Shown here: piece by piece, positions 4,824-20,516 of the stretch
Layout: every line of letters starts with the position of its first letter
Position numbering within the stretch: position 1 is the first letter of the stretch
NCBI RefSeq assembly: GCF_016862095.1
Contig: NZ_BOMH01000068.1
Location: 62,001-126,000, forward strand
DNA length: 64,000 bases
Direction: 5' to 3'
Source: Actinoplanes cyaneus
GTDB lineage: Bacteria > Actinomycetota > Actinomycetes > Mycobacteriales > Micromonosporaceae
Notes under the pieces: model-generated
What the model was told of the DNA's origin: nothing
Databases searched by the model: none
What the model saw: the letters and a program-made list of their open reading frames with translations, nothing else
Translations under genes and position numbers: made by a program

Positions 4824-4885
4824 TCAACTGGTTGGTTGACAGGGGCCAGCGGTGCTTGTACGTTGAGTTTCAACTACAAAGTTGA
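4824..4885 (+). promoter_or_regulatory. Promoter with two TCAAC-N6-GTTGA operators
   Basis: TTGACA (4836-4841) and TACGTT (4859-4864) are separated by 17 bp, a good sigma-70-type promoter for the gene at 4900. TCAAC-N6-GTTGA occurs at 4824-4839, overlapping the -35 box, and at 4870-4885, just past the -10 box; the second copy extends to seven-base arms (TTTCAAC/GTTGAAA, 4868-4887). Their centres are 46 bp apart. This arrangement suggests repression by a dimeric regulator not encoded next door. The same DNA also lies upstream of the divergent kinase. Confidence 0.75.
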
Positions 4886-4899
4886 AAGAGGGGTTCCGG

Positions 4900-5469
4900 A
4901 TGACACTGTCCGACCAGCCTGCCGAGCGGCACCGGCAGATCAGCGGGGGCTTCACCGAGCGGGTCCGGGGCGCCTCGGCGTGGGACGCGCCGGCGCCGGT
5001 TCCCGGGTGGGCCGCGCGTGATGTGGTGCGGCACCTGGTCGAGTGGCTCCCGGCGTTCCTGGCCTCGGGCTCCGACGTCCGGCTCCCCGCCGGGCCATCG
5101 GTGGACGCCGACCCGGTCGCCGCGTGGCAGGCGCACAACGACGCGGTCCAGGCCCTGCTCGACGACCCGGCCACCGCCGCGCGGCGGCTGTCCAATCCGC
5201 ACATCGGTGAGGTGCCGCTGGATCGGGCGATCGACCAGTTCTACACGTCCGACGTGTTCATGCACACCTGGGACCTGGCCCGGGCCACCGGTCAGGACGA
5301 ACGTCTCGACCAGGAGTTCTGCGCCCAGCTGCTGGCCGGGATGGAGCCGATGGAGGAGATCATCCGCTCGTCCGGGCAGTATGGTCCTCGCGTGCCGGTC
5401 AAGGACAACGCCGACGTGCAGACCCGCCTGCTCGGCTTCATCGGCCGCGACCCGGACTGGACCGCCTGA
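4900..5469 (+). CDS. Maleylpyruvate isomerase/DinB-fold, mycothiol-dependent-type enzyme
   Basis: 189 residues. The N-terminal segment PGWAARDVVRHLVEW and the later QFYTSDVFMHTWDLARATGQ are the hallmark blocks of the actinobacterial TIGR03086/maleylpyruvate isomerase-like family. These adopt a DinB four-helix fold and often bind a divalent metal, and some use mycothiol. The exact reaction cannot be predicted. The ATG at 4900 has AAAGAGGGG upstream; the earlier TTG at 4882 lies inside an operator and is unlikely. The gene stands alone, divergent from the Ser/Thr kinase, under an apparently tightly controlled promoter. Confidence 0.8.
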   Translation: MTLSDQPAERHRQISGGFTERVRGASAWDAPAPVPGWAARDVVRHLVEWLPAFLASGSDVRLPAGPSVDADPVAAWQAHNDAVQALLDDPATAARRLSNPHIGEVPLDRAIDQFYTSDVFMHTWDLARATGQDERLDQEFCAQLLAGMEPMEEIIRSSGQYGPRVPVKDNADVQTRLLGFIGRDPDWTA

Positions 5470-5533
5470 CCAACGCCCCAGCTCAGCGCCGCGATCCCCG
5501 GCCCGGTACAGGTTCGTCGCGCGGCCGGGCGTC

Positions 5534-5590
5534 CCGGCTGGTGCTCATGGTCGTTATTCGGCCCGGATAACGACCATGAGCACCAGCCGG
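5534..5590. repeat. Dispersed hairpin repeat, copy 1 (24-bp arms, 9-nt loop)
   Basis: A perfect inverted repeat: 24-nt left arm 5534-5557, loop 5558-5566, right arm 5567-5590. The left arm begins CCGGCTGGTGCTCATGG and ends GTCGTTAT. A second copy with the same arm and loop lengths is at 18893-18949, and two imperfect relatives are at 5669-5722 and 5731-5781. No transposase or T-tract is adjacent. Confidence 0.9.
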
Positions 5591-5668
5591 CCAACCGTGC
5601 GTCGCGTTGCGACCCGGTGCTGCGCGAGGCCCGGCGTGGTCCGCCTCCGGCACGCGGCCGCAGCACCT

Positions 5669-5722
5669 CGGCTGGTGCTCACGGTTGGAAAACAGCCTGA
5701 ACGCAGCCGTGAGTGCCAGCCG
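5669..5722. repeat. Dispersed hairpin repeat, copy 2 (imperfect)
   Basis: Left arm CGGCTGGTGCTCACGG (from 5669) pairs with GCCGTGAGTGCCAGCCG (5706-5722) at about 15 of 17 positions, with a 20-nt intervening segment. It shares the GGCTGGTGCTCA-CGG core with the perfect copies but has lost the inner GTCGTTAT part. Confidence 0.75.
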
Positions 5723-5730
5723 CGGTGGGT

Positions 5731-5781
5731 GGGCTGGTGGTCACGGTTGTGATGGGGCTCGATAGCAACCGTGAGTGCCGG
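5731..5781. repeat. Dispersed hairpin repeat, copy 3 (degenerate)
   Basis: GGCTGGTGGTCACGGTTG (5732-5749) faces GCAACCGTGAGTGCCGG (5765-5781). The TCACGGTTG/CAACCGTGA portion pairs well and the outer part is mismatched. The three copies fill most of the 363-bp gap between the genes at 4900-5469 and 5833-6777. I see no gene in that gap. Confidence 0.65.
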
Positions 5782-5832
5782 TTGCTCGGGGGCTGGGACG
5801 ACCGCGCGAGCCGGCGGGCGTGGGCGGCCCGG

Positions 5833-6777
5833 TCAGGTGGCGGCGCGGTGGGCGGGGCCGTGGGCCTCGACGCAGTGCGGCTCGCCGGAATGGCCGGGCA
5901 GGTCGTCGCTGTGGTCCACCTGCAACGTCGTGTGGCCGATGTCGTGCCGGTGCCGCAGCAGATGCTCGAGATCGGCCCGGGTGGCGTGGCAGTCGGCGTG
6001 GTCGGCGACGATCACGTGCGCGGATAGCGCCGTCTGACCGGAGGTGATCTGCCAGACGTGCAGATCGTGGATCTCGGTCACCGCGGGGACGGCGGCCAGC
6101 TCCGCCCCGATCGCGTCGACGTCGACGCCGGCCGGGGCGGCTTCGAGCAGGATGCGGCCGGGGTCGCGGACCAGGCGGACCCCGGCCACGACCATGAGCA
6201 CCACCACGATCAGCGAGGCGATCGCGTCGGCGCGGGCGAAGCCGGTGACCACCATGACCACGCCGGCGATCAGCGTGGCGACGAACGCGAACAGGTCGTT
6301 GAGGATGTGCTGGAACGCCCCTTCGACGTTGAGGCTGGTCCGGTTCGCCCGGGACATGCACCACGCGGCGCCGAGGTTGACCACGACACCGGCCGCGGCC
6401 GTCGCGACGACCAGGCCGCCGGCGACCTCGGGCGGGTCGAGCAGGCGGCGGACCGCCTCATACCCCAGCCATCCGCCGAGCAGCAGCAACGACAACCCGT
6501 TGGCCTGGGCGGAGAGGATTTCCGCGCGCTTGAGCCCGTACGTGTAGCCGCCCTGCGGCGGCCGCGCGGCCAGGCGCATCGCGATCAGGGCGAGGACGAT
6601 CGCGGCCGCGTCGGTCAGCATGTGCGCGGCGTCGGAGAGCAGGGCCAGCGACCGGGCGACGACGCCGACGACGACCTCACCGGCCATGAACGTGGTGATC
6701 AGCGCGAGCGCGGCGACGAGCCAGCGCCTGTCCGCACCGGCGCTCACGCCGTGGTGATGGTCGTGCTCGTGCCCCAT
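5833..6777 (-). CDS. Cation diffusion facilitator (CzcD/ZitB-type) metal exporter
   Basis: 314 residues. A His-rich start (MGHEHDHHHG) precedes six predicted membrane helices between about residues 17 and 200. The metal-site motifs are SLALLSDAAHMLTDA in helix 2 (HxxxD) and HILNDLFAF in helix 5. A cytosolic C-terminal domain contains HDLHVWQI and several His residues. These features are typical of CDF proteins that export Zn(II), or sometimes Co/Cd, using the proton gradient. The ATG at 6777 has AAAGGGGCC upstream. It is monocistronic and no metal regulator is adjacent. Confidence 0.93.
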   Translation of the reverse strand: MGHEHDHHHGVSAGADRRWLVAALALITTFMAGEVVVGVVARSLALLSDAAHMLTDAAAIVLALIAMRLAARPPQGGYTYGLKRAEILSAQANGLSLLLLGGWLGYEAVRRLLDPPEVAGGLVVATAAAGVVVNLGAAWCMSRANRTSLNVEGAFQHILNDLFAFVATLIAGVVMVVTGFARADAIASLIVVVLMVVAGVRLVRDPGRILLEAAPAGVDVDAIGAELAAVPAVTEIHDLHVWQITSGQTALSAHVIVADHADCHATRADLEHLLRHRHDIGHTTLQVDHSDDLPGHSGEPHCVEAHGPAHRAAT

Positions 6778-6991
6778 CGGCTCGGCCCCTTTCCCGCGCA
6801 CCAACTGTAAGCCGCCCGCCCCGGGCGACGCGGTGCCCGCCCAGCGCCGGGAACAGCTCGCCGGAGTCGCAGCGACAAGGCACAGGAACCGGGCGCCGAC
6901 CACGCGCTCGTCCTGACGCCGGCTTTCCGACCCCGGTCAACCCCATGTGCCCGTACGGCCGAAAGCCCTGCTCCCTGCTCGGAAACGCACG

Positions 6992-7564
6992 TCACTTCCC
7001 GGTGGTGAGCAGCGCGACCAGGCTGTCGGCCAGCTGATCGTCGAAGGGCCCGGGCACCGCCAGCAACCGGTACCACAGCACGCCGTAGACGACGTCGGCC
7101 ACCACGTCCGCGGTGAGGCCCGGCGGCAGGTCGCCACGGTCGCGCGCCCGATCGACCAGCGTCGCCAGCGCGGCGCGGCGGCGCTGGAGGAACTCCTCGC
7201 GGAAGCGCTCGCCGAAGACCGGGTCGAGCTGAGCCTCGACCATCAGCGCGCGCAGCAGCTCCCCGATCTGTGGAGCGCGCGCGAGCGTGTAGCTGTCGTT
7301 GAGCATCTTCCGCAGGTCAGCGGCCCAGCTGCCCTCGTCGGGCATCGGGATGTAGACGTCGGCCTTGCGCGCGAGCGCCTCCATCAGGACGTCGCCCTTG
7401 GACGGCCAGCCGCGGTAGATCGTCTGTTTCCCGACGCCGGCGCGCTGCGCGATCTTCTCGATGGAGGCCGCCGCGTAGCCCTGCTCGACGACGAGTTGCG
7501 TGGCCGCGAGCAGGATCGCGTCCCGGCTCTCCTGGCTGCGGGGCCGGCCCGTCCTGCGCTCCAT
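6992..7564 (-). CDS. TetR/AcrR-family repressor, divergent from an SDR gene
   Basis: 190 residues. The N-terminal TetR helix-turn-helix (about residues 10-56) reads AILLAATQLVVEQGYAAASI then AGVGKQTIYRGWPSKGDVL. The C-terminal ligand domain resembles the TetR_C_11-type set. The ATG at 7564 lies just inside an intergenic inverted repeat shared with the SDR gene at 7665. It likely represses itself and that gene, released by an unknown small molecule, a common arrangement for divergent TetR pairs (inference). Confidence 0.92.
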   Translation of the reverse strand: MERRTGRPRSQESRDAILLAATQLVVEQGYAAASIEKIAQRAGVGKQTIYRGWPSKGDVLMEALARKADVYIPMPDEGSWAADLRKMLNDSYTLARAPQIGELLRALMVEAQLDPVFGERFREEFLQRRRAALATLVDRARDRGDLPPGLTADVVADVVYGVLWYRLLAVPGPFDDQLADSLVALLTTGK

Positions 7565-7590
7565 GCCGATGATCGTAACGCACTTTCGAT

Positions 7591-7647
7591 ACGAGACGGT
7601 GCGGTTCGGAAGTGTGTTAGCCTCACTTACGAACCGCACCGTCTCGT
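7591..7647. promoter_or_regulatory. 18-bp inverted repeat operator between tetR and SDR
   Basis: ACGAGACGGTGCGGTTCG at 7591-7608 is repeated perfectly in inverted orientation at 7630-7647, with a 21-bp spacer. The pair occupies the centre of the 100-bp intergenic region and so should cover both divergent promoters. It is the obvious binding site for the adjacent TetR protein. Confidence 0.8.
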
Positions 7648-7664
7648 TTGTCAGGAGCATCGTC

Positions 7665-8366
7665 ATGTCGAAGCGCATCCTCGTCGTCGGCGGCACCTCG
7701 GGCGTCGGCCTCGCCACCGCCCGCCGCCTGGCCGCCGCGGGCAACACCGTCCACGTCGCCAGCCGCGACACCACCAAGCTCACCGACGCGCCCGAACTCG
7801 AAGCGCACCAGGCCGACGGCAACGACGCCGCAGCCGTGGCGCGCCTCGCCGCCGGGCTCGCGCCACTGGACACCCTGGTCGTCACCCTGTCCGGCGCGGA
7901 GGGCGCCGGTGCGTTCGCCGAGCTGGACCTGGCGTCGCTGCGCCGCGCGTTCGAGGGGAAGTTCTGGCCGACCCTGACCGTCCTGCAGGCCGTCCTGCCG
8001 CACCTGGCCGAACGCGCCTCGATCACGCTCGTCGGCGCGATCAGCGCGCACGCCGCCATGCCCGGGACGGCCGGGATCGGCTCGCTCAACGCCGCCGTCG
8101 AGTCCCTGGTCCGGCCCCTCGCGGTCGAGCTGGCGCCGCGCCGGATCAACGCGGTGTCGCCGGGGCTGGTCGACACTCCCTGGTGGAACGGCCTCGCCGA
8201 GCCGGACCGGACCGCGTGGTTCGCCTCCGCCGCGAAGGTCCTGCCCGTCGGCCGGGTCTCCACCGCCGACGAGATCGCCGACGCGGTCGTGCTGGCCGCC
8301 ACCAACCCGTCAATGACCGGTTCGATCCTCCACATCGACGGGGGCGCCCGGTTCGCCCACTTCTGA
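7665..8366 (+). CDS. Short-chain dehydrogenase/reductase
   Basis: 233 residues. The N-terminal NAD(P)-binding motif is GGTSGVGLATA. The usual Ser-Tyr-Lys triad is degenerate: the segment aligned with YxxSK reads GTAGIGSLNAAVES and has no Tyr or Lys. The end has the classic GSILHIDGG. It belongs to the SDR family usually found divergent from a TetR repressor. Loss of the Tyr/Lys pair makes normal oxidoreductase chemistry doubtful. The ATG at 7665 has AGGAG upstream. It converges on the adenosine deaminase gene and overlaps it by 57 bp. Confidence 0.88.
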   Translation: MSKRILVVGGTSGVGLATARRLAAAGNTVHVASRDTTKLTDAPELEAHQADGNDAAAVARLAAGLAPLDTLVVTLSGAEGAGAFAELDLASLRRAFEGKFWPTLTVLQAVLPHLAERASITLVGAISAHAAMPGTAGIGSLNAAVESLVRPLAVELAPRRINAVSPGLVDTPWWNGLAEPDRTAWFASAAKVLPVGRVSTADEIADAVVLAATNPSMTGSILHIDGGARFAHF

Positions 8367-9389
8367 GCGTGAGGCGGTCACGTAGTCGTCGATCTCGGTC
8401 AGGATCGCGGCTTTGCCGTGGTCGTCCAGGAACGAGTAGCGGACCGCCTGCCGGGCCAGCTCGGCGACACCCGGGGCGTCGAGCCGGAGCAGGCCTGCCG
8501 CCACCTCGTACTCCCGGTTGAGGGTGGTCGAGAACATCGGCGGGTCGTCGGAGTTGATGGTGACCGGGACGCCGGCCGCCACCAGCGCCGGCAGCGGGTG
8601 CTCGGCCAGCGACGGCACCGAGCGCGTACGCACGTTGGAGGTCGGGCACACCTCCAGCGCGATGTCGTGGTCGCGCAGGTGGGCCATCAGCTCGGGGTCG
8701 CGGGCGGCGGCGATGCCGTGGCCGATGCGTTCGGCGCCGAGGTGGCGTAGCGCGTCCCAGATCGTCTGCGGGCCGGTCGACTCGCCGGCGTGCGGCACAC
8801 TGCGCAGCCCGGCGGCCCGGGCGGCGGCGAAGTGCGCGGCGTAACGCTCCCGCGGGATGCCGGCCTCGGGCCCGCCCAGCCCGAAACTGATCAGCCCGGC
8901 CGGCCGCTGGTCCAGGGCCACGCCGAGCGTCACGTCGGCCGAGTTCATCGTCGGCTCGCCCGGGATGTCGAAGCACCAGCGCAGCTGGATGCCGTGGTCC
9001 CGCTCGGCCCGCAGCCGCGCGTCCTCGACCGCCTCGCAGTACGCCTCGGCCGGGATGCCGCGAGTGACGGAGGAGTACGGGGTGAGGGTCACCTCGGCGT
9101 ACCGCACCGCCTGCGCGGCCAGCCCCGCCCCGATGTCGTAGGTGAGCGTCGCGACGTCCTCGGCGTCCCGGATCAGGTCCACCACCGACAGGTAGACCTC
9201 GACGAAGTGCGCGAAGTCGGTGAACGTGAAGAACTCCGCCAGCAGTTCCGGATCGGCCGGCACGGAGGTGGTTCCGGCGTGCCGCTCGGCCAGCCGGGCC
9301 ACGGTCTGCGGTGTCGCCGACCCGACGTGGTGGACGTGCAACTCCACCTTGGGCAGCCCGGCGATGAATGCGGTCAGATCTGATGCCAC
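8310..9389 (-). CDS. Adenosine deaminase-family amidohydrolase
   Basis: 359 residues, full length for the family. Metal ligands are seen in ELHVHHVGSA (HxH, about residues 17-21), HAGES and the late SDDPPMF; the catalytic HAGE Glu is present, and GIAAARDPEL follows the GHG motif. It should deaminate adenosine or a related 6-aminopurine nucleoside. The HHVGSA variant in place of HLDGA is common in actinobacteria, some of whose ADA-like enzymes act on aminofutalosine in menaquinone synthesis, so the substrate is uncertain. GTG start at 9389 with GGGAGG upstream. Confidence 0.88.
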   Translation of the reverse strand: MASDLTAFIAGLPKVELHVHHVGSATPQTVARLAERHAGTTSVPADPELLAEFFTFTDFAHFVEVYLSVVDLIRDAEDVATLTYDIGAGLAAQAVRYAEVTLTPYSSVTRGIPAEAYCEAVEDARLRAERDHGIQLRWCFDIPGEPTMNSADVTLGVALDQRPAGLISFGLGGPEAGIPRERYAAHFAAARAAGLRSVPHAGESTGPQTIWDALRHLGAERIGHGIAAARDPELMAHLRDHDIALEVCPTSNVRTRSVPSLAEHPLPALVAAGVPVTINSDDPPMFSTTLNREYEVAAGLLRLDAPGVAELARQAVRYSFLDDHGKAAILTEIDDYVTASRSEVGEPGAPVDVEDRTGH

Positions 9390-9531
9390 GAGTAGTCCTC
9401 CCGGGTGGGAGGCGCCCTTGCGACCGGGGTCGGGCCGGGCCGAGCGTGGCGGATGATCATCCGTCGCAGCGCCTCTCGACCCGCACCGGGCATGCTAACA
9501 CCGGCCCCTGACCATCGGCGTCCATCGTCCC

Positions 9532-10120
9532 CTAGCCTCCGGTGAGGACGGCGATCAGCTTGCCGGCCGCGTTGTCGCCGAGCAGGATGCGGTTCATCGT
9601 GATGCCGTCGGTGGCGAGGTCGGCGCTGCGGGCGAACATCGCCTGCTCGTAGGCGGCGAGCGCCGCCTCGGTGTCCTCCGGATGCGCGGCGAGGGCCGTG
9701 CCGAGCTCGGCGCCGTCCTGCATGGCGAGGTTCGCGCCCTCGCCGTTCGGGGGCTGCAGGTGCGCGGCGTCGCCGAGCAGGGTCACGCCCGGCACGCGGG
9801 GCCAGCGATGATCGATCGGCAGCCCGAAGTGCGGGCGGTGGACCGGCTCGGTGTCGCTCTCGGTGATCAGTGCGGCCAGTTCCGGCGCCCAGCCGGACAC
9901 CTCGGCGGCGAACCGGCCGGTAGCGCCGGGGGGCGGTGAACCAGTCCAGCGGTCGAGTCACCCAGGTAGGCGTGCAGGTTCCCGTCGCTCTCGCGATGCA
10001 CCAGGAGGACTTTGCCGCTCGTGGCGCGGTCGAAGGCGAACAGCGAACCGCCGCCGACGAGTTTCGCGGAGAGGCCGGGCGCACTGCTCGTGCGGCAACG
10101 CCACGATCGACAGTGAGTGC
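9532..10120 (-). pseudogene. FAD-dependent monooxygenase (TetX-like), truncated and frameshifted
   Basis: The last 120 codons (9532-9900) encode WAPELAALIT and TLLGDAAHLQPPNGEGANLAM, the FAD-binding end of class A aromatic hydroxylases. The preceding part lies in two other frames: one encodes GGGSLFAFDRATSGKVLLVH and HAYLGDST, the next RPLDWFTAP. At least two frameshifts are therefore needed, near 9960 and near the six-G run at 9928-9933. The N-terminal dinucleotide motif GxGxxG is absent. This is a decayed monooxygenase unless the run contains a sequencing error; even then the 5' half is missing. Confidence 0.75.
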
Positions 10121-10320
10121 CACCCGGCGGTGTCCGGTCCCGGTGCGCCGGCGTCGACCGGAGCCCGCTGGATGATCGTGTGAGGACCTTGACCGAAGGT
10201 GCCGGAGAAAGGCGATCGGCGGACGGAAGGGTAAGCGCGGCGTACATTTTGAGCCGGGCGCTCGCCATTGTATTCGTCAGATTGTTCCGGGCGTTCCCAT
10301 TTCGATGAAAGGGAGCTTCG

Positions 10321-10683
10321 ATGAAAACTCGAAAGTGGAGCGCGGTGCTCGGTGGCGCGCTGGTCGTCGGGTCGTTAGGGCTGGTCCAGGGGCTGAGCGC
10401 GGCCTCGGCAATGGCCGCTGACGCGGGTGCGGTGACCATTTCGGCGCACGTCGCGCAGGTCGGCGGAAAAGAGTATCAGCAGGGTTATCGGGACGGGATC
10501 AAGGACGGCGGGGAAGCGGGGGAGGCCGCCTGCAAGAAAGTGAACGACGACGCTGGTCTGAGCCTGCACAGCGGGCAGGGTTTCGCGAATGACCAGGCTC
10601 AGCAGGAGGCGGATTATCAGCGGGGCTACGACGTCGGCTACCAGAAGGCGTACGACAAGGCGTTCGAGACCTTCTGCTCCTGA
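10321..10683 (+). CDS. Small secreted protein with tyrosine/glycine repeats
   Basis: 120 residues. A signal peptide is clear: KTRK start, hydrophobic core to about residue 30 and an ASAMA cleavage region. The mature part contains related segments EYQQGYRDGIKDG and DYQRGYDVGYQKAYDKAF, each a Y-x-x-GY-x-x-G pattern, with one Cys in the middle (AACKK) and one at the C-terminus. I do not recognise a named family; the repeats resemble short glycine-zipper-like or surface-associated motifs. AAAGGGAG lies five bases before the ATG. An intrinsic terminator follows, so it is monocistronic. Confidence 0.8.
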   Translation: MKTRKWSAVLGGALVVGSLGLVQGLSAASAMAADAGAVTISAHVAQVGGKEYQQGYRDGIKDGGEAGEAACKKVNDDAGLSLHSGQGFANDQAQQEADYQRGYDVGYQKAYDKAFETFCS

Positions 10684-10695
10684 GAGTGGCGATCG

Positions 10696-10724
10696 CGGAG
10701 GGGGCGGCCGGGCTACCCCCTCCG
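10696..10724 (+). terminator. Stem-loop after the small secreted protein gene
   Basis: CGGAGGGGG (10696-10704) pairs perfectly with CCCCCTCCG (10716-10724) across an 11-nt loop, beginning 12 bp after the stop codon. The short following tract is GTTGGGT, so termination would be of the U-poor actinomycete type. Confidence 0.55.
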
Positions 10725-10750
10725 TTGGGTCGATCCGGGAAAATCTTGCG

Positions 10751-10815
10751 AACACGTTGGTTCCTGTTTCTTTTCGTTGACATCACACATGTAACTGGCT
10801 CAATGTGAACGTGTT
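10751..10815 (+). promoter_or_regulatory. Probable promoter and inverted repeat before the GH2 gene
   Basis: TTGACA at 10777-10782 with CAATGT at 10801-10806 (18-bp spacing) is a plausible promoter. It is flanked by AACACGTT (10751-10758) and its exact reverse complement AACGTGTT (10808-10815). Such paired half-sites around a promoter are common for sugar-responsive repressors, but no regulator gene is adjacent. Confidence 0.45.
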
Positions 10816-10842
10816 ACGTCGTCAGGCGAAGGGAAACACTCG

Positions 10843-13800
10843 ATGCCACGATCGCCGTGGAGAGCGCTGCTCCTGGCCGTCCTCTTGACTCTCTCGTTCA
10901 CCGCCGTGCCGACCGGCGCGAACGCTGCCGTCACGGTGCACGGCCTCAAGGGCGAGTACTACGCGATGTCCGCCCCGGGCGCCCGCGACTTCGCCCAGCT
11001 GGGCGGGGTCTCGCTCGACCCGAACATCGACCTGTCCGATCTGACCGGCACCTTCCAGTCGTTGCTCGGCCGCACCGAGCACACGACGGCCCGCTGGACC
11101 GGCAAGCTGACCGCCCCGGCGACCGGGGACTACACGTTCTTCATGATCGGCGACAACGGGTTCCGGTTCTTCCTGGACGGGCAGCCGGTGATCGACCACT
11201 GGGTCGGTGACTGGGACGTCGAGCAGACCAGCGCGGCAGTGCATCTGGTCGCCGGGGAGGCTCACGACGTACGCATCGAAATGTTCCAGGATGTCGGCGG
11301 GGCGAACCTCTTCCTGCGCTGGTCGGGCGCCGGGCTGTCGAAGCAGCTCGTGCCGGAGAGCGCTTTCACCCCGCCGGACGGCTTCCAGGTCTTCCCGGTC
11401 GCGCTGACCGTCGGGGCTGACGGCCGCAAGCTGGTCGCCGACTTCGACGCGACGGTCGACGCGATCGCGCAGACCGCCGCACACCTGAAGATCGAGGCCG
11501 ACACCACGCCGATGCCGATCTCGTCGATCAGGAAGACCGGGAAGAAGCAGCTGACCGTCACCCTGGCCGAGCCGATCCAGGCCGGGCAGAAGGTGCGCGT
11601 CACCTACGACGGCACGGGCGGCCTGGTCGTCGGCGGCGAGACGGTGCCGCAACTGGTCCGTTCCGCGATCAACAACTCCACGCACCGCCTGACCACGGTG
11701 TGGGGCGACAAGCTGAACGAGCAGCACCCGCTGCCGGAGTACCCGCGTCCGCAGCTCACCCGCCGCGACTGGCTCAACCTGAACGGCCCGTGGGAGTTCG
11801 CCGGCGCCACAGCGACCGAGCAGCCGGTCTTCGGCAGGAAGTTGCGGGAGCGGATCATCGTGCCGTTCCCGGTCGAGTCGCAACTGTCCGGCATCGAGCG
11901 GCGCGAGTCGCACATGTTCTACCGCAAGCTGGTGACCATCCCGAAGGGCTGGAGGGAGCGGGTCAAGCTCAACTTCGGGGCGGTCGACTACCAGGCCAAG
12001 GTGTACGTCAACGGCAGCCTGGTCACCGAGCACACCGGCGGCTACACGGCGTTCACCGCGGACATCACCGACGCGCTGCGCGGCCGTGGCCAGCAGGAGA
12101 TCCTGGTCGAGGTCACCGACGTGACCGGGCCGGACCAGCCGAAGGGCAAGCAGTCGCTGAACCCGGGCGGCATCGTCTACACCCCGTCGTCGGGCATCTG
12201 GCAGACCGTGTGGCTGGAGCCGGTCGCCGCCGCGAGCATCGACACCATCGTGACCACTCCGGACCTGGCCACCAACTCGCTGAAGCTGACCGTCACGTCG
12301 GCGTCCGCGAAGGCCGGCACCACGGTCACGGCGGTCGCAAAGGACGCCAAGGGCCGCAAGGTCGGTACGGTCACCGGCCTCGCCGGGGCGCAACTGAGCC
12401 TGCCGATCGCCAAGCCGCACCTGTGGACGACGGACGATCCCTATCTGTACGACCTGGACGTCACGCTCGGCCGCGATCGGGTGGGCAGCTACTTCGGGAT
12501 GCGCTCGGTCGCCGTACAGCAAATCGGTGGCTTTCCGAAGTTGACGTTGAACGGCAAACCGGTCTTCTCCCTGGCCACCCTGGATCAGGGCTTCTTCCCG
12601 GACGGGCTCTACACCGCGCCGAGCGACGACGCGCTGAAGTTCGACCTGGTGGAGACGAAGAAGCTCGGCTTCAACGCGGTCCGCAAGCACATCAAGGTCG
12701 AGCCGGCGCGCTGGTACAAGCATGCCGACGAGCTCGGTCTGCTCGTCTGGCAGGACTTCGTGTCGGCCGACATCACCGGCACCGCCGGTCAGCGGGCCTG
12801 GTACGACCAGGGTCGCGAGATGATGAGCCAGCTGCACAACAGCCCCTCCGTGATCGGCTGGGTGGTGTTCAACGAGGGCTGGGGCGAGTGGGACCGCACC
12901 GCGACCGGCCAGATCGCCGAGCAGGTCAGGGCCGCCGACCCGTCCCGGATCGTGAACGCGCACAGCGGCGTGAACTGCTGCGCGTCGAAGGGCGACTCCG
13001 GCAAGGGCGACGTCATCGATCACCACGACTACAACAACACCGACCCCGCCTACCCCGACGCGACGCGGATGGCGATGGACGGCGAGCACGGCGGCTTCAC
13101 CCTGCGCACCCCCGGGCACATGTGGCCGGGCACGCCCGCGGTGATCTACAGCGGGGTCGCCGACAAGGCCGCGCTGACCGCCAAGTACGTCGACAACACC
13201 GAGCGCTTCTACCTGGAGGCGGCCGGGGCCGAGCTGTCCGGTTCGGTCTACACCCAGATCACCGATCTGGAGACCGAGCTCAACGGTCTGTGGACCTATG
13301 ACCGGCGGCAGATCAAGGTCGATCCCGCTCCCGTACGGGCGGTGAACCTTCGCGTCATCGCGGCCGGCGCCGCCGCGCAGGCCAAGCCGGCCCCGCCCGG
13401 CCACGGCGACTGGAGCCTGGACGAGGGCACCGGCACCGTGGCTCGCGATTCCGGCGGGTCCAGTGATCTCACGCTGACCGGCAACACCGCGTGGACGGCG
13501 GGCGTGTCCGGCTCGGCGCTGAAGTTCGACGGTGACGGCGACTCCGCGGACACCGCCGCGCCGGTCGTCGACACCACGAAGGACTACACGGTGTCGGCCT
13601 GGGTGACGCTGGACAAGGTGCCGGGCAACTACGCGACAGCGGTCAGCCAGGACGGCCGGCGGGCCGAGAACCCGTTCTACCTGCAATACGGGCAGGGCGC
13701 GTTCGCGTTCAGCACGCCGGGCGGCAACCGGGCGCGGCTCGCGGTCACGCCCGAGCTGAACCACTGGTACCAGCTGACCGGGGTCCGTGACCACGCCACC

Positions 13801-14013
13801 GGCGAGATCCGGCTGTTCGTCGACGGCAAGCGGGTCGCGACCACGACCGCCGGGCCGGATGTGGTCAGCACCGGGCCGCTGTCGGTGGGCCGGGCGAAGT
13901 ACGCCGGCAACAAGACCGACTACTGGTCCGGCAACGTCGATCAGGTCCACGCCTTCGGCCGGGCGCTGACCGACGCGGAGGTCTCCGCCCTGTACGCCGC
14001 GGAAGTTCACTGA
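10843..14013 (+). CDS. Secreted multidomain glycoside hydrolase family 2 protein
   Basis: 1056 residues. Order: signal peptide (1-28), PA14 carbohydrate-binding domain (about 33-150), an Ig-like domain (about 180-275), GH2 sugar-binding and Ig-like domains (about 310-570), GH2 catalytic barrel (about 575-840) and a C-terminal LamG/concanavalin-like domain (about 880-1055). In the barrel, FNEGWGEW supplies the predicted acid/base Glu678, and GEHGG the likely nucleophile Glu748. It should hydrolyse a beta-glycoside in exported polysaccharide; beta-galactosidase, glucuronidase and mannosidase cannot be told apart. The gene stands alone between its own promoter and terminator. Confidence 0.92.
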   Translation: MPRSPWRALLLAVLLTLSFTAVPTGANAAVTVHGLKGEYYAMSAPGARDFAQLGGVSLDPNIDLSDLTGTFQSLLGRTEHTTARWTGKLTAPATGDYTFFMIGDNGFRFFLDGQPVIDHWVGDWDVEQTSAAVHLVAGEAHDVRIEMFQDVGGANLFLRWSGAGLSKQLVPESAFTPPDGFQVFPVALTVGADGRKLVADFDATVDAIAQTAAHLKIEADTTPMPISSIRKTGKKQLTVTLAEPIQAGQKVRVTYDGTGGLVVGGETVPQLVRSAINNSTHRLTTVWGDKLNEQHPLPEYPRPQLTRRDWLNLNGPWEFAGATATEQPVFGRKLRERIIVPFPVESQLSGIERRESHMFYRKLVTIPKGWRERVKLNFGAVDYQAKVYVNGSLVTEHTGGYTAFTADITDALRGRGQQEILVEVTDVTGPDQPKGKQSLNPGGIVYTPSSGIWQTVWLEPVAAASIDTIVTTPDLATNSLKLTVTSASAKAGTTVTAVAKDAKGRKVGTVTGLAGAQLSLPIAKPHLWTTDDPYLYDLDVTLGRDRVGSYFGMRSVAVQQIGGFPKLTLNGKPVFSLATLDQGFFPDGLYTAPSDDALKFDLVETKKLGFNAVRKHIKVEPARWYKHADELGLLVWQDFVSADITGTAGQRAWYDQGREMMSQLHNSPSVIGWVVFNEGWGEWDRTATGQIAEQVRAADPSRIVNAHSGVNCCASKGDSGKGDVIDHHDYNNTDPAYPDATRMAMDGEHGGFTLRTPGHMWPGTPAVIYSGVADKAALTAKYVDNTERFYLEAAGAELSGSVYTQITDLETELNGLWTYDRRQIKVDPAPVRAVNLRVIAAGAAAQAKPAPPGHGDWSLDEGTGTVARDSGGSSDLTLTGNTAWTAGVSGSALKFDGDGDSADTAAPVVDTTKDYTVSAWVTLDKVPGNYATAVSQDGRRAENPFYLQYGQGAFAFSTPGGNRARLAVTPELNHWYQLTGVRDHATGEIRLFVDGKRVATTTAGPDVVSTGPLSVGRAKYAGNKTDYWSGNVDQVHAFGRALTDAEVSALYAAEVH

Positions 14014-14018
14014 GCCGG

Positions 14019-14048
14019 TGCGGCGCGGGCCGGTCGGCCCGCGCCGCA
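14019..14048 (+). terminator. Intrinsic terminator after the GH2 gene
   Basis: A perfect 13-bp stem (TGCGGCGCGGGCC, 14019-14031, with 14036-14048) and a four-base loop are followed by ACGCTTTTGC. It begins five bases after the GH2 stop codon. Confidence 0.8.
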
Positions 14049-14127
14049 ACGCTTTTGCACCCGGCTTCGTTGCGTTGCCGGTGCAGGTCGTCTCAACCAC
14101 TCAAGGGCCCTACCGATAGTGCCCGAC

Positions 14128-16926
14128 ATGTCGCACAGAGTGAACGACCAGCGTCTCCAGACGCTGCACGCCACCGGCCTGCTCGACGCGGCGCCGGTGC
14201 CGTCGCTGGACCGGCTGACCTCGTTGGCCGCGCGCCTGCTGAACGCCGGCGGGGCGCTGGTCACCCTGATCGACGCCGACCGTCAGTGCTTCGTGAGCCA
14301 GCACGGTCTTCCGGACCTGCCGGGCGACACCCCGCTACGGCAGTCCTACTGCAAGTTCGTGGTGTACGACGAGGCCCCGCTGATCGTCGCGGACGCGCGC
14401 CTCGACGACCGACTGCGCGACATCGCCAGCGAGATGGCCATCGCGTACGCCGGCTACCCGCTCTGCGCCCCGGACGGCAGCGTGCTCGGCTCGTTCTGCG
14501 TCGTCGACTCGCGCCGCCGCGACTGGACCGCCGACGAGACCGCCATCCTCGCCGACCTGGCCGCGGCCGCGTCGGTCGAGGTCGCGCTGCGGCTGGCCTG
14601 CGCCCGGGAGACCGCCGCCCGGCAGCGGACCGAGGCGATCCTGAACGGCACGCACGACGCGTTCGTCTCCACCGACCGTTCCGGAACCGTCCTGGCCTGG
14701 AACGCGGCCGCCGAGCGGATGTTCGGCTACCCCGCCACCGACACGCTGGGCCGCCCGCTCGCCGGCCTGGTCTTCCCGGACCGGTTCCGCGACCTGCAGG
14801 AGATCGCTGACCAGCCGCTCCCGGTGACCGTGACCGGCTGCTCCGGGCAGGAGTTCCCGGTGGAGATGACCGTGCAGTTCGTCGACGAGGTCGTCTACTA
14901 CGCGTTCGCCCTGGACAGCGCGTTCCTGCAGGCGTTGCTGGACAGCCTCGACACCGGCGTGGCCGCGTGCGACAACCAGGGCCGTCTCACCTACTTCAAC
15001 CGCAGCATGCGCGAGATGCTCGGCTGCAAGGACGCCGCCGCCGACCTGGCGACCGAGGAGTGGGCCGAGCAGTACGGCATCTACACCCCCGACGGCCGGC
15101 GTCGCCCCGAGCGGATGCCGCTGGGCCGCGCGCAGGCCGGCGAGATCGTGCGCGGGGAGCAGGCGATGCTGTGGCGCGACGGCGAGCGGCGCTTCCTGGT
15201 CACCAACGCCCGCCCGATCGACACCGCCGACGGCCGGCAGCTCGGCGCCGTCGCGGTCGTCGCCGACATCACCGAGGCGCACCGGGCCGAGGAGTTGCGC
15301 CGCGCCCGGCACGCCGTCGCCCAGGCGCTCTCCGTCGCGACCACTGCGCAGGACGCGGCGATCCGGGCGGTCGAGGCCATCACCGACGAACTGGGCTGGC
15401 TCTGCGGCGAGTACTGGCAGGTCTCCGAGGACCGGCGGCGAATCGAACGGCTGAGCTCGCACACCACCGGTGACCGGGATCTGTCCACGTTCAGCAGCGA
15501 CCGGCCGCTGACCTTCGTACGCGGGGAGGGTCTGCCCGGGCTGGTCTGGCACCGCAACAACGAGGTGTGGTGGCACACCGGGGTCATGCCCGAGGACATG
15601 GTGTCGCCGGGCCGCCGGGAGCTGCACGAGGTCGGGATGCGGGTCGCGGTCGGTGTGCCGGTGCGCTCCGGCCGTCGTACCCTCGGCGTGCTCGCCTTCT
15701 ACACCGACGTCGACTTCCCGTACGACTCGGACACCGCCGGCATGTTCGATGCCGTCGGCGCCCACCTCGGGCACTTCCTCGAACGTCGCTGGGCCGAGGA
15801 GATGTCCCTGGCGCTGGCCGAGGCGCGGCGCAGCTTCAACCGGGTCGTCGAGCAGGTCAACGACTACGTCTGGACCGTCGAGGGGGTCGGCGGGGAGCCG
15901 CCGCGGGTCGTCTGGGCCAGCCCCAACACCACGACCGTGTTCGGGGTCGTCCCCGACGGCGTGCCGAGCCCGACGCTCATCGAGCGGCTGCACCCGGACG
16001 ACGCCGACCTGATGGTGGCCTTTCAGGAGGCGCTCGCCGACGGCGAAGCGGCCGAGCTGGAATGCCGCATCCTCGGCTTCGACGGTGTGACCCGCTGGGT
16101 CTGGACGCGGGCCCGGGCGCGCTGGTCGGACGGCCGGTTCTTCGTCGACGGGCTCAGCACCGACGTAACCGAGCGGCGCGAACTCGCCGACAAGCGGGAC
16201 GAGCTGCTCGAACAGGAGCGCCGGCAGGTCGAGCAGCTGCGCAGCCTGGACGAGATGAAGGACGAGCTGGCCGCGGTCGTCATCCATGAGCTGCGCAACC
16301 CGATCGGCGTGATCCGCGGCTACAGCGAGACGCTGCTGGAATCGACGGGGCTCGGTGATCGGGAGCGCCGTTACGCCGACGTCATCGAGCGGACCACCCT
16401 GCACCTGCAGGGCCTCGTCGACGACCTGCTGGACCTGGCACGGCTCGCCGCCGGGCACATCAGCGTCGACCCGGGCGCGCTGGCCGGTGACGAGCTGATC
16501 CGCGACGTGATCGAGAACCACGCGCCCGGTGCGGCCGCCAAGCACCTGACCGTCGTGCAGCGGGTCGGACCGGGGCTGGCGCTGCACGCCGACGGGCGCC
16601 GGCTGCGTCAGGCGCTGGACAACATCATGTCCAACGCCATCAAGTACACGCCCGACGGGGGAGAGGTCACGGTGACCGCCTCCCGGGACGGGGACACGGT
16701 CGTCGTCGCGGTCAGCGACACCGGCATCGGCATCCCGGCCGAGCAGTACCCCCACCTGTTCAGCCGCTTCTTCCGGGCCAGCAACGCGACCCAGGCCGGC
16801 ATCAAGGGCACGGGTCTCGGCCTGGCCGTCACCAAGGCGATCGTCGAGGCCCACGACGGGACGATCGCCGCGGGCCCGGCCATCGGCGGCGGAACGACGT
16901 TCACCCTGCGGCTGCCGGCGCTCTGA
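14128..16926 (+). CDS. Large soluble PAS/GAF sensor histidine kinase
   Basis: 932 residues, no membrane helices. Order: GAF domain (about 20-165), PAS (about 170-270), PAS (about 275-390), GAF (about 395-560), PAS/PAC (about 570-695), coiled linker, HisKA with phospho-accepting His in AVVIHELRNPIG (about residue 720), then HATPase with NIMSNAIKYT (N box), DTGIGIP (G1) and GTGLGL (G2). The first GAF resembles those in cytosolic photoreceptor-like or redox-sensing kinases. The ATG at 14128 is the first good start; a GTG at 14119 would add three residues. No cognate regulator is adjacent, so it is an orphan kinase. Confidence 0.9.
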   Translation: MSHRVNDQRLQTLHATGLLDAAPVPSLDRLTSLAARLLNAGGALVTLIDADRQCFVSQHGLPDLPGDTPLRQSYCKFVVYDEAPLIVADARLDDRLRDIASEMAIAYAGYPLCAPDGSVLGSFCVVDSRRRDWTADETAILADLAAAASVEVALRLACARETAARQRTEAILNGTHDAFVSTDRSGTVLAWNAAAERMFGYPATDTLGRPLAGLVFPDRFRDLQEIADQPLPVTVTGCSGQEFPVEMTVQFVDEVVYYAFALDSAFLQALLDSLDTGVAACDNQGRLTYFNRSMREMLGCKDAAADLATEEWAEQYGIYTPDGRRRPERMPLGRAQAGEIVRGEQAMLWRDGERRFLVTNARPIDTADGRQLGAVAVVADITEAHRAEELRRARHAVAQALSVATTAQDAAIRAVEAITDELGWLCGEYWQVSEDRRRIERLSSHTTGDRDLSTFSSDRPLTFVRGEGLPGLVWHRNNEVWWHTGVMPEDMVSPGRRELHEVGMRVAVGVPVRSGRRTLGVLAFYTDVDFPYDSDTAGMFDAVGAHLGHFLERRWAEEMSLALAEARRSFNRVVEQVNDYVWTVEGVGGEPPRVVWASPNTTTVFGVVPDGVPSPTLIERLHPDDADLMVAFQEALADGEAAELECRILGFDGVTRWVWTRARARWSDGRFFVDGLSTDVTERRELADKRDELLEQERRQVEQLRSLDEMKDELAAVVIHELRNPIGVIRGYSETLLESTGLGDRERRYADVIERTTLHLQGLVDDLLDLARLAAGHISVDPGALAGDELIRDVIENHAPGAAAKHLTVVQRVGPGLALHADGRRLRQALDNIMSNAIKYTPDGGEVTVTASRDGDTVVVAVSDTGIGIPAEQYPHLFSRFFRASNATQAGIKGTGLGLAVTKAIVEAHDGTIAAGPAIGGGTTFTLRLPAL

Positions 16927-16942
16927 CCGGCGGCCGGGCAGA

Positions 16943-17914
16943 TCAAGCCTTCGCTGTACGCGGGGAGACCGCCCCGCCGCGGTCGGCCTCCACCGCGCGC
17001 CGCAGCATCGACCGGACCACCGCGGGGTGGAACAGTCGCACCACGGTCAGGTAGACGCGACCGGCCCGGGTGGTCGCCGTCGCGTGCGTGGACACGGTGA
17101 CGGTCACCCCGTCGTCGTCCGGCTCGGCCAGCACACTCGCGCGGAAGTTCAGATGCGACGCGTCGGTGCCGAGCAGCACCTCACGATCGGTGCGGGCGAG
17201 GGTGGCGAAGGCGGAACGGTCACCGCGCTCGATGCCGAACGGGGTGACCAGCGTGTTGCGCAACCGCATCAGAGCGGCCACGGCCCGGGGCGGATCGCGG
17301 AAGACCCGGTCCGCCCAGGTCTGCGGGTCGGTGGCGGCGCCCGGGTGCACGCGGGCCGTGTACGCGTCGGCGAGATCCGGCCCGGGCAGGGCGGAATGCA
17401 GCAGCCCGGCCCGCGCGGGCACCGGAACGGCCCGGATCGGGCGGCTCAGCCTCGTCATCAGCCGCGCCCGGAACGGGTGCCGGGCGGGCGGGACCACCGC
17501 GCCGGCAGCGGCCCGCTCGGCGTTGTCGAGCAGCTCCTCCAGCAGCGTGTCGTGGCATGTCCGCACGATCGCCGCCCAGGCCGGTCGCATCGAGCCGCGC
17601 AGGCTGACCGCCATCCGGTGCCGCAGCACACACGCCTCGGCGCCGCGGGCCTCGACCTCGAAGACGTGGGTGCCGCACACGCCGATCCGCTCGTCGAAGG
17701 TGAACTCCACCCGGCGGCCCGGCTCGTGACCGGTGACGTGATAGCGCACCCGCCCGTGGCCACCTGTGGCTCCCGGGCCGAGCGGACGATCGAGGCGCAT
17801 CGGCATCCAGGCCGGGGACGGCCAGAGCCGATCACCCGGCCGGCCCAGCCCGTCGAGCAGTTGCCCGACGACGGCTGCCGGGGCGGCGATGAGGCGTTCG
17901 TGCACGTTCTCCAC
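16943..17914 (-). CDS. SRPBCC plus DUF2867-like protein
   Basis: 323 residues. The N-terminal half (about 1-135) has the SRPBCC/polyketide-cyclase-like pattern: VHERLIAAPAAVV at the start, VEFTFDERIG in the sheet, and a C-terminal helix containing TLLEELLDNAE. The second half, from LPGPDLADAYTARVHPGA, matches DUF2867. Both folds bind small hydrophobic ligands, but no reaction can be assigned. The start is GTG at 17914 with GGAAGGCGG upstream. It is divergent from a TetR repressor whose operator repeats fill the gap, so it is probably the repressor's target. Confidence 0.78.
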   Translation of the reverse strand: MENVHERLIAAPAAVVGQLLDGLGRPGDRLWPSPAWMPMRLDRPLGPGATGGHGRVRYHVTGHEPGRRVEFTFDERIGVCGTHVFEVEARGAEACVLRHRMAVSLRGSMRPAWAAIVRTCHDTLLEELLDNAERAAAGAVVPPARHPFRARLMTRLSRPIRAVPVPARAGLLHSALPGPDLADAYTARVHPGAATDPQTWADRVFRDPPRAVAALMRLRNTLVTPFGIERGDRSAFATLARTDREVLLGTDASHLNFRASVLAEPDDDGVTVTVSTHATATTRAGRVYLTVVRLFHPAVVRSMLRRAVEADRGGAVSPRTAKA

Positions 17915-17927
17915 GGCGATCCGCCTT

Positions 17928-17965
17928 CCGTACGGTGGCGTATGTTTTCCGTACTGTAGCGTATG
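17928..17965. promoter_or_regulatory. Two direct operator repeats, 21-bp period
   Basis: CCGTACGGTGGCGTATG (17928-17944) and CCGTACTGTAGCGTATG (17949-17965) differ at two positions and lie exactly 21 bp, two helical turns, apart. Each contains TAC-N6-GTA dyad symmetry. They occupy the whole gap between the divergent SRPBCC and TetR genes, and the second covers the TetR start codon. Confidence 0.75.
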
Positions 17966-18541
17966 GACATGGCGTCAACGCGGCTCAGTGCCGACGACTG
18001 GACAGCGGCGGCCCTGGAAGCGATCGGTCGCGGTGGCCTCGCCGCGGTCGCGGTCGAGCCGCTCGCCGCCCGGCTCGGCGCGACCAAGGGCAGCTTCTAC
18101 TGGCACTTCGCGAACCGGGACGCGCTGATCGAGGCCGCCCTGCACCGCTGGGAACGCGATCACACCGATGCCGTGATCACCCTCATCGAGGCCCAGCCCG
18201 ACGCGATGTCCCGGATCCGGCTGCTGATCACGACGGTCATCGCGTCGACGACCGCGCCGCACGCCGACGGGATCGAGCTGGCCATGCTCGCGACCGCCGA
18301 CCATCCGCACGTGGCGCCGGTGCTGGCCCGGGTGACCGAGCGGCGGGTGGCGTACACGGCCGGGCTCTTCGAGGAGCTGGGGATGACGGCCGGCGAGGCG
18401 CGGCTGCGCGCGTTGATGGCGGTCAGCGCCTACCTGGGGTTCGGGCAGCTCGCCCACGCGGCGCCGGCCACGGTGCCGGCCGGCCTGGACGAACGGCGCT
18501 CCTACGCCGAGCGGCTGATCGCCCTGCTCACCGCCCGCTGA
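17963..18541 (+). CDS. TetR-family repressor
   Basis: 192 residues. The N-terminal helix-turn-helix spans about residues 12-58 (TAAALEAIGRGGLAAVAVEP, then LGATKGSFYWHFANRDALIEA). The C-terminal ligand domain contains ADHPHVAPVLARVTERR, typical of one actinobacterial TetR group. Start ATG 17963 lies inside the upstream operator; ATG 17969 is an alternative, and a leaderless message is possible. It likely controls itself and the divergent SRPBCC gene. Its 3' end runs directly into a series of CCCGCTGA-containing repeats that begin at the stop codon. Confidence 0.92.
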   Translation: MDMASTRLSADDWTAAALEAIGRGGLAAVAVEPLAARLGATKGSFYWHFANRDALIEAALHRWERDHTDAVITLIEAQPDAMSRIRLLITTVIASTTAPHADGIELAMLATADHPHVAPVLARVTERRVAYTAGLFEELGMTAGEARLRALMAVSAYLGFGQLAHAAPATVPAGLDERRSYAERLIALLTAR

Positions 18542-18790
18542 CCCCGCCGCGCCCGCTGACCCCCTGCGTCCGCTGAACCCCGCCGCTCATCGCGCCCGCC
18601 GCGCCGCTCGGCGCGTCCACTGATCCTGCCGCTGCCGCTGCCGCTGCCGCTGCCGCTGCCGCCTGCCGCGCCCGCTGGTCGCGCCCGCTGGTCGCGCCCG
18701 CTGCTCGCTGCTCGCTGCTCACTGCGCCCGCTGGTCGCGCTGCTCGCCGCGCCCGCTGATCTTGCCGCTCGACCGGTGACGCCTTCCGCC
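18534..18790. repeat. Low-complexity repeat field beginning at the tetR stop codon
   Basis: CCCGCTGA, which contains the tetR stop codon, recurs at 18552 and, as TCCGCTGA, at 18569. Beyond that come about six GCTGCC hexamers (18628-18663), repeated GCGCCCGCTGGTC units (about 18668-18745) and CTCGCTG units. This is the first half of a 596-bp stretch (18542-19137) in which I see no gene. Confidence 0.8.
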
Positions 18791-18892
18791 GCTCGACCGA
18801 TGACGCCGCTCGGCGCGGAGCGCGGCCGAGGCGCGACAAGTGCCCGATCGCGGGGGATGCGAGGGCTGAGGAGGTGGTGCTGGCACGAGGTC

Positions 18893-18949
18893 CCGGCTGG
18901 TTCTCACGGTCGTTATGAGGCACGAATAACGACCGTGAGAACCAGCCGG
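18893..18949. repeat. Dispersed hairpin repeat, copy 4 (24-bp arms, 9-nt loop)
   Basis: A perfect inverted repeat with left arm 18893-18916, loop 18917-18925 and right arm 18926-18949. The left arm begins CCGGCTGGTTCTCACGG and ends GTCGTTAT. Relative to copy 1 at 5534-5590 each arm carries two substitutions, each matched by a compensating change in the other arm, while the loop sequence differs completely. Confidence 0.9.
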
Positions 18950-19137: not shown

Positions 19138-20391
19138 TCAGTTGCCGTACTTGTCGAAGGAGACGGTCCAGTCGCCGAGACCGTTGGTGAGGCCGAGGGT
19201 GCGCGGGCTGTTCTTGACGTCGACCACGTCGCCGACCATGAAGTTCTCATACACCCACTTGGCGTCCTCGACGCTCAGGTTGATGCAGCCGTGCGACTTG
19301 TTCGCCACGCCCAGCTGGTGGTTCCACGGGGCGGCGTGCAGGAACTCGCCCGAGTACGAGATTCGGGTGCAGTACTGCACCTTGTCGTCACCGTAGTAAT
19401 ACGGGTTGTTCGGGTCGGTGACGCCGTAGCTCGACGAGTTCATCGTGTGCCACAGCTCCTTGGAGAGCACGACGTGCGGGCCGCCCGCGGTCCAGAAGTT
19501 GATCTCCTGACCCTGCGCGCCCTTCGTGGTGCCGCCCATGCCGAAGCTGCTCTTCATGGTGCGCACGACCTTGCCGTCGATCATCACCTTGGTGATGTGC
19601 GTGCGGCTGTCGGCGATCGCGATCAGCTGGCGGCCGATCTTGAAACTGGCGGAGGCGTTGCGGTCACCGTAGACGCCCTTGCCCAGCTCCTTGCCGAGGA
19701 CGTCGACGCTCACCTTGATCGAGCTGCCGGCCGTCCAGTACTTCGCCGGGCGCCAGTGCACGATGGTGTTGCTGACCCAGTGGAACTTGCCCTCCACCTT
19801 CGGCGACGTCGTGATCTCGATGGCCTTCTCGGCCAGCTCCTTGTCGACGGTGTGGCTGAACGCGACGATGACCGGCTGGCCCGCCCCATACGTCCCGCCG
19901 GACTTCAACGAGTTCAGCCCGTTGGCCTGGAAAGTGATCCGGGCGATCTGCTTCGGCTTGATCGTGGTGAACGTCGAGGCCTGCTCGGAGGCCGTGCCGG
20001 CGCTGTCAGCGGCCTTCACGACCACCTTGTACGTCTTGTTGTAGTCCAGCTCGCCGGTCGAGGCCCAGGTGCCGTCGGACTGCAGCGCGCCGGCGACCTT
20101 CGTCTTGCCGGTGGTGACAGTGACCGACTGCAGCGTGCCGGACTGGGCGGCCACGACGATCGGCTTGGTCAGCGCGACGCCGGTGGCCTTGTCGGCCGGC
20201 GTCACCGTCAGCTGCACGACCGGCGCCGACTCGACCGGGGCGGACGCGCCGGGCGCGGCCTGGTTGTCGGCCACCGGGTTGGTCCAGACGGTGCCGCCGG
20301 AGTCGGCCGAGGCGTGGGCGGAACAACCGGCGGCCGTGGCCGTGGCGGCCACACCGAGCGTGCCGATGATGACCTTGCGTCGCTGAATCAT
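19138..20391 (-). CDS. L,D-transpeptidase lipoprotein (LdtMt2-like)
   Basis: 417 residues. A basic start (MIQRRK), hydrophobic segment and AAGC lipobox at about residues 19-22 indicate lipid anchoring outside the membrane. Two Ig-like domains (about 55-260) precede the YkuD catalytic domain, which ends with HQLGVANKSHGCINLSVEDA, where His and Cys are catalytic. These enzymes form 3-3 crosslinks in peptidoglycan and resist most beta-lactams. The ATG at 20391 is chosen because the lipoprotein signal starts there; longer forms add unsupported sequence. The gene lies 125 bp downstream of a membrane Ser/Thr kinase on the same strand. Confidence 0.93.
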   Translation of the reverse strand: MIQRRKVIIGTLGVAATATAAGCSAHASADSGGTVWTNPVADNQAAPGASAPVESAPVVQLTVTPADKATGVALTKPIVVAAQSGTLQSVTVTTGKTKVAGALQSDGTWASTGELDYNKTYKVVVKAADSAGTASEQASTFTTIKPKQIARITFQANGLNSLKSGGTYGAGQPVIVAFSHTVDKELAEKAIEITTSPKVEGKFHWVSNTIVHWRPAKYWTAGSSIKVSVDVLGKELGKGVYGDRNASASFKIGRQLIAIADSRTHITKVMIDGKVVRTMKSSFGMGGTTKGAQGQEINFWTAGGPHVVLSKELWHTMNSSSYGVTDPNNPYYYGDDKVQYCTRISYSGEFLHAAPWNHQLGVANKSHGCINLSVEDAKWVYENFMVGDVVDVKNSPRTLGLTNGLGDWTVSFDKYGN

Positions 20392-20516
20392 GGCTCTCGC
20401 ATTCGAGGGGGGTGCCGCCGATGGTTGCACATATAGAAGACGTGGTGGGGGCCGGAAAGGTTGACCGCCGGGTCGATCAATCTTGCGACAACCCCGAACG
20501 CTGTCAACCCGTGCTG

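Follow-up and report, generated by a model that had tools for sequence, protein, structure and literature searches.

The stretch of DNA analysed here (the window, 64,000 nucleotides) comes from the genome of Actinoplanes cyaneus (G000; 10.36 Mb in 183 contigs), which belongs to a genus that serves in the production of antibiotics and acarbose. Two of its intergenic regions harbour four hairpin units, each of them between convergent genes as predicted by a home-made gene finder (Table 1).

Table 1. Hairpin units of the window and the genes that face them
Feature	Position	Strand	Remarks
MDMPI_N domain gene (Pfam)	4882..5469	+	upstream of the units at 5534-5783, points at them
Hairpin unit 1	5534..5590	.	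perfect arms of 24 nt, centre TCGGCCCGG
Degenerate 52-nt unit, first of tandem pair	5670..5721	.	period of 62 bp
Degenerate 52-nt unit, second of tandem pair	5732..5783	.	linker of 10 nt
Cation efflux family gene (Pfam)	5833..6903	-	far side of the units at 5534-5783, points at them
TetR family gene (Pfam)	17963..18541	+	upstream of unit 2, points at it
Hairpin unit 2	18893..18949	.	perfect arms of 24 nt, loop GAGGCACGA, the commonest of the family
L,D-transpeptidase (YkuD) gene (Pfam)	19138..20520	-	far side of unit 2, points at it

Both hairpins picked out by the initial annotation are present, and their arms of 24 nt are perfectly paired. For unit 2 the repeat finder returned arms of 24 nt with 100% complementarity and 9 nt between them, and for unit 1 arms of 28 nt with 96% complementarity, the outer 24 nt of which are perfectly paired by eye. 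Folding of the + strands gave z-scores of -13.8 and -12.4 for the two hairpins as DNA and of -14.4 and -11.1 as RNA; in the RNA fold of unit 1 the central 'loop' prolongs the stem to 27 pairs with a loop of 3 nt. Two arm positions differ between the copies and are compensated at both, which bears out the paired substitutions first noticed, while the loops, said to differ fully, in fact agree at 5 of 9 positions (TCGGCCCGG and GAGGCACGA). Likewise confirmed were the two degenerate relatives beside the first copy, which stand head to tail 62 bp apart, the intergenic location of all four units, and the absence of a T-tract, no such terminator being found in a scan of the first site (5400-6000). 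The pattern GGCTGGTNNTCAYGGTYG matches 17 times in the window against a shuffle mean of 3.3, a number reached in 0 of 100 shuffles.

Low-complexity tandem repeats (CCGCTG / CGCCCGCTG) adjoin unit 2 at 18630-18760. A further hairpin at 7591-7647, with arms of 24 nt (96% complementary) and 9 nt between them, is unrelated in sequence; it adjoins a gene start and is perhaps the operator of the adjoining regulator.

Copies in the genus and anatomy of the unit

When up to 3 mismatches are allowed, the arm pattern matches 355 times on the forward and 357 times on the reverse strand of the A. cyaneus genome, compared with 0 and 1 matches for the reversed pattern. The full hairpin occurs there 128 times in exact form, twice in a near relative (G032), and in none of 65 other Actinoplanes genomes. 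In 35 other Actinoplanes genomes the arm pattern yielded 228 forward matches in G032, 35 in G014, 14 in G016 and 0-6 in the remainder; judged by the L,D-transpeptidase, a single protein, these three are the nearest among the relatives searched (85%, 77% and 80% identity, respectively). Two of the hairpins in G032 are letter-identical to hairpins on scaffolds of Actinoplanes liguriensis NRRL B-16723. The initial annotation had left it to a search of the genome and its relatives whether further copies exist; there are hundreds of them, and the search of relatives revealed a genus-wide family.

The members of this wider family share a foot (GGCTGG/CCAGCC) and a length of 52-53 nt, while their stems vary by species, as exemplified by TTCTCATGGGCGTTAT in G000, TTCTCACCGTGGTTAT in G032, CTCTGCGGGGTGTCTC in G010, CCCTGACGGCCCTATC in G076 and TCGTCACGGTGGTGTC in G060. 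Sites of the form GGCTGG-N40/41-CCAGCC number 3-21 in 52 of 67 Actinoplanes genomes and at least 31 in the other 15. The reversed pattern, used as a control, matches 19-66 times per genome; it exceeds the forward count in most family-free genomes and is no exact baseline there. Clear of both the background range and their own control are 11 of the 67 genomes, namely G076 (781 sites), G060 (607), G014 (575), G000 and G090 (448 each), G010 (260), G032 (238), G069 and G077 (109 each), G016 (87) and G083 (72). A stricter pattern applied outside the genus, to 297 genomes of the same order, found 0-4 sites in each, against 0-6 for its reversed control. The family of short hairpin repeats with nearly perfect arms that gathers between facing genes in some Actinoplanes is real and larger than first noticed, and within the genomes searched it is restricted to this genus. 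Phage and plasmid collections held no match to a 77-nt query around unit 2, and the literature searched, with subscription journals mostly outside its reach, described no repeats of this kind in Actinoplanes.

Across 34 copies the information content amounts to 1.77 bits per position in the arms, falls to 0.47 in the 10 nt flanking each end and to 0.07 in the 50 nt beyond. As this drop coincides with the ends of the hairpin, the hairpin itself is the repeated unit, consisting of a constant foot (mostly CCGGCTGG/CCAGCCGG in G000), some 16 stem pairs particular to the species and an apex of 8-9 nt. A recent segmental duplication, which the initial annotation had named as a possible source of the copies, is excluded because conservation is confined to the hairpin. 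The outer flanks additionally carry symmetric but weak motifs (CTCGCG, some 45-50 nt outwards), which a mobile unit of 57 bp does not explain.

Among the 43 units of 53 nt in an 855-kb sample of the A. cyaneus genome, 23 have a loop identical to GAGGCACGA or to its reverse complement (13 one way, 10 the other), and 32 have one within 2 mismatches of either. The loop is thus neither random nor free, but dominated by a single sequence in both orientations. By their pairing, the 62 sampled units fall into two age classes, 36 of them being paired at 20 or more of 22 positions and 20 at 15-17. Among the 21 perfect-armed copies of the sample there are 11 different arms.

Covariation of the stem

Two alignments were examined for compensated changes, both built from units preselected to have at least 15 of 22 positions paired (as were the units in the region counts below), so that the pairing percentages given here are inflated. 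The first comprises the full set of 43 units of 53 nt sampled in G000 and omits those of 52 nt. In this alignment 95.2% of the cells pair, 14 of 22 pairs vary on both sides, and none of five covariation measures was reached in 500 shuffles. The second, hand-picked alignment contains 32 units from several species (24 of the 29 best-per-stretch units of G032, G010, G076 and G060, four from G000 and four single-locus units); 90.2% of its cells pair, 15 of 22 pairs vary on both sides, and of the five measures three were matched by none of 500 shuffles and two by 18 and 25 shuffles. Copy counts against the control, shuffles, covariation and folding z-scores together rule out chance hairpins.

The initial annotation had concluded that selection acts on the stem. 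The observation behind this claim stands, in that pairing is kept through compensated changes; the conclusion itself is open to other readings, since matched arms would also result if founder stems had been copied many times, or if one arm had been corrected from the other during replication. Wobble mismatches, read on the strand defined by the loop, comprise 47 G-T and 39 A-C (p=0.45), an equality that gives no sign of a constraint on single-stranded RNA. This argument is not decisive, because both strands between convergent genes are possibly transcribed.

Arrangement between convergent genes and in arrays

In the 855 kb of G000, which were picked from contigs known to hold copies and in which genes were predicted by a home-made codon-usage script, 33 of the 44 unit-bearing intergenic regions are convergent, against 77 of all 404 regions longer than 60 bp (Fisher p=4e-18). 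A further 10 are unidirectional and a single one is divergent; with 1 of 115 divergent regions carrying a unit, the depletion there is likewise strong (Fisher p=4e-6). Only 3 of 62 sampled units lie inside predicted genes. Distances from unit to stop codon have quartiles of 111, 199 and 308 nt, and 7 of 104 are 50 nt or less. The convergent share points the same way in G076 (9 of 15 regions, p=4e-5), G060 (4 of 6, p=0.013), G032 (5 of 11, p=0.020) and G010 (2 of 3, p=0.049), all single-test values from few regions, and no bias appears in G016, where the one region sampled is not convergent (0/1). Stretches were taken at even steps throughout in G060 (20 stretches), on known arrays for the first five and at even steps for the other 15 in G076, from three contigs known to hold copies in G032, and around one gene in G016 and G010.

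In G076 and G060 the units form head-to-tail arrays with a period of 62-64 bp and up to 12 units per cluster. In 18 of the 21 arrays of these two genomes (loci L185-L224), oriented by the position of dnaA, the leading strand of the 9-11-nt linkers is rich in G, one tie being scored as C-rich. The linker start CGAC, once oriented, shows no polarity in G076 (6 with, 3 against and 2 undecided on the left arm; 2 with and 2 against on the right), and strand-biased mutation may therefore explain the G-rich linkers. The rows of G076 all lie on one strand among the matches listed, which extend to 2.26 Mb.

Eight orthologous convergent gene pairs, few for a comparison, could be set side by side, and 6 of the 8 have no unit in either genome. 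A seventh has a unit in G000 but none in G060. At the eighth, the second site of the window, G000 and G032 both carry a unit, with a different stem in each. Neither a clean empty site nor a target duplication was seen among the eight pairs; similarly, the unit ends of 34 copies show no conserved direct repeat, and the comparison offered no empty site with alignable flanks. The species-specific stems could also have arisen by conversion of old sites in place, and the orthologue comparison does not decide between this and movement.

Possible modes of spread

The description of the units as REP-like holds well. Like REP, BIME and REPIN elements they are short intergenic palindromes, and REPs are described as often present in more than 100 copies per genome, mostly downstream of genes, species-specific and at times in arrays (PMC2817692, PMC3733652, PMC6006769). 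The A. cyaneus units number in the hundreds, lie near gene 3' ends, carry compensated stems and lie preferentially between convergent or unidirectional genes (43 of 44 G000 regions), as has been reported for REPs, together with GTAG or CGTC tags and species-specific sequence (PMC3733652, PMC2817692, PMC6006769, PMC1525189, PMC12306157). They differ in a stem of 22-24 pairs with an apex of 8-9 nt, against a basal stem of 7-20 in REPs (PMC2817692, PMC3733652, PMC6006769); in the constant foot CCGGCTGG instead of a GTAG, GTGG or CGTC tag; in the head-to-tail arrays of 62-64 bp; and in the lack of a Y1 transposase in several rich genomes.

A REP-associated transposase, for which the initial annotation had proposed to look, was searched for and not found with the units. 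Y1_Tnp (Pfam) matches occur in 6 of the 11 genomes searched, G000 having two fragments only, and there are none in G076 (781 sites), G060 (607), G077, G016 and G083. None of nine Y1_Tnp loci inspected in other genomes carries a unit, and the neighbour of several of them reads, from its sequence, as a TnpB of the IS605 type. Subclass 1.1 of the Y1 transposase family is of the IS200/IS605 kind. For Actinobacteridae a published survey records no other subclass of the family (PMC6006769). The REP tags GTAG, GTGG and CGTC, sought 0-2 nt 5' of the hairpin foot, stand at 0, 1 and 7 of 124 unit ends in G000, against 0, 4 and 9 at a distance of 190 nt; they are not enriched in G076 (130 ends), G060 (34) or G032 (28) either, and G010, with only 10 ends, has GTGG twice against 0 in the control. 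Because several rich genomes are free of a Y1 transposase and no REP tag is found, we regard the units as REP-like in behaviour and do not class them as REPs of the RAYT type. That a RAYT/TnpA-REP transposase moves them as it does ordinary REPs, as their general look and the Y1_Tnp matches in six genomes might suggest, is already largely refuted and highly improbable: five unit-bearing genomes have no match, the nine loci are without a unit, and the tags are unenriched at the foot.

A second reading would make the units two-way terminators or insulators, selected for their hairpin between convergent genes and homogenised by gene conversion without being moved. In its favour are the strong preference for convergent regions and the near lack of units in divergent ones, the great stability of the hairpins on both strands, and the only orthologous site of G000 and G032 that aligns well, which is occupied in both with differing stems; a stable GC-rich hairpin at gene 3' ends is, indeed, what the units have in common with intrinsic terminators. 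The units nevertheless lack a T-tract at the one site scanned, lie far from stop codons at the distances given above, are copied from few stem types across one genome, are missing altogether from most Actinoplanes genomes, and in places form rows that surpass the need of a terminator, all of which leaves this reading rather unlikely. Still less probable, in our judgement, is an origin from a classical DDE insertion sequence, as its MITE-like ends or its derivatives. Small size, lack of coding capacity, inverted repeats, multiple copies and the weak symmetric outer flanks would fit; yet conservation is limited to the 57-bp hairpin, a single hairpin whose interior is practically nothing beyond its apex of 9 nt, no transposon with such ends occurs in the stretches read, and tandem arrays with linkers of 10 nt, which are unusual for MITEs, count against it too. 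A structured RNA or riboregulator could account for the covarying stem and for a loop that is conserved and asymmetric. There are, against this, no Rfam matches above the gathering score in the window or in five unit-bearing loci, the loop runs either way (13 and 10 of 43 units), G-T and A-C mismatches are equally frequent, and the gene neighbourhoods read share no common function, so that we give an RNA very little credence.

Loss of SbcCD, the nuclease that cuts palindromes, was considered as a cause of the expansion and rejected, as the SbcD model TIGR00619 scores above its cut-off in 67 of 67 genomes.

We consider it probable that the units are miniature palindromic repeats of a REP-like Actinoplanes family, spread by a putative trans-acting factor. 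Such a factor would recognise the foot in an extruded or single-stranded hairpin and would copy units to new places, or convert units there, with new stem variants sweeping through one genome and old ones decaying. Stems could drift while their arms stay matched, whether through a need for pairing or through correction of one arm by the other. The units would survive chiefly between convergent genes, where no gene or promoter is broken, and may profit there from supercoiling; the tandem arrays, with their period of 62-64 bp, presumably grow by slippage or unequal exchange. Any advantage to the host, for instance through blocking transcription from both sides, would be hypothetical. More tentatively, and with some doubt on our part, the spread might proceed without any Y1 (RAYT) enzyme through a factor specific to Actinoplanes that reads the foot GGCTGG/CCAGCC and leaves the stem free, a proposal that would accommodate stems of each species' own, up to about 780 sites in a genome and linkers that are G-rich on the leading strand.

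REP populations have so far been explained by a captive Y1 transposase, and Actinoplanes offers REP-like units in their hundreds with that enzyme absent from several rich genomes, so that the question of what copies REPs becomes testable outside the known system. The genus also provides an evolutionary series, in which closely related species have no units, tens or hundreds of them, the foot remaining constant and the stem changing. On the practical side, the units are repeats of the kind that break short-read assemblies, and they may affect convergent transcription in Actinoplanes.

In the G000 sample, blastn at 1e-6 links 40 of 77 convergent intergenic regions through repeats to other intergenic regions, compared with 1 of 115 divergent regions. 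A second repeat, 'B', is absent from the window and occurs at G000 loci such as L046 near 17186, L055 near 12570 and L070 near 13466; it is structured and intergenic, with the core GGGTCCCCGCGGGAGC and a long hairpin, both sides of which covary by eye. Its exact longer pattern occurs at 56 places in G000 and at none in 39 other genomes (G032 not included). In the 855 kb of G000 there are 15 copies, 14 of them between convergent genes and 13 no more than 400 nt from a hairpin unit, and every one of the 15 is oriented with its 3' end towards the 3' end of the neighbouring gene, 39-182 nt away.
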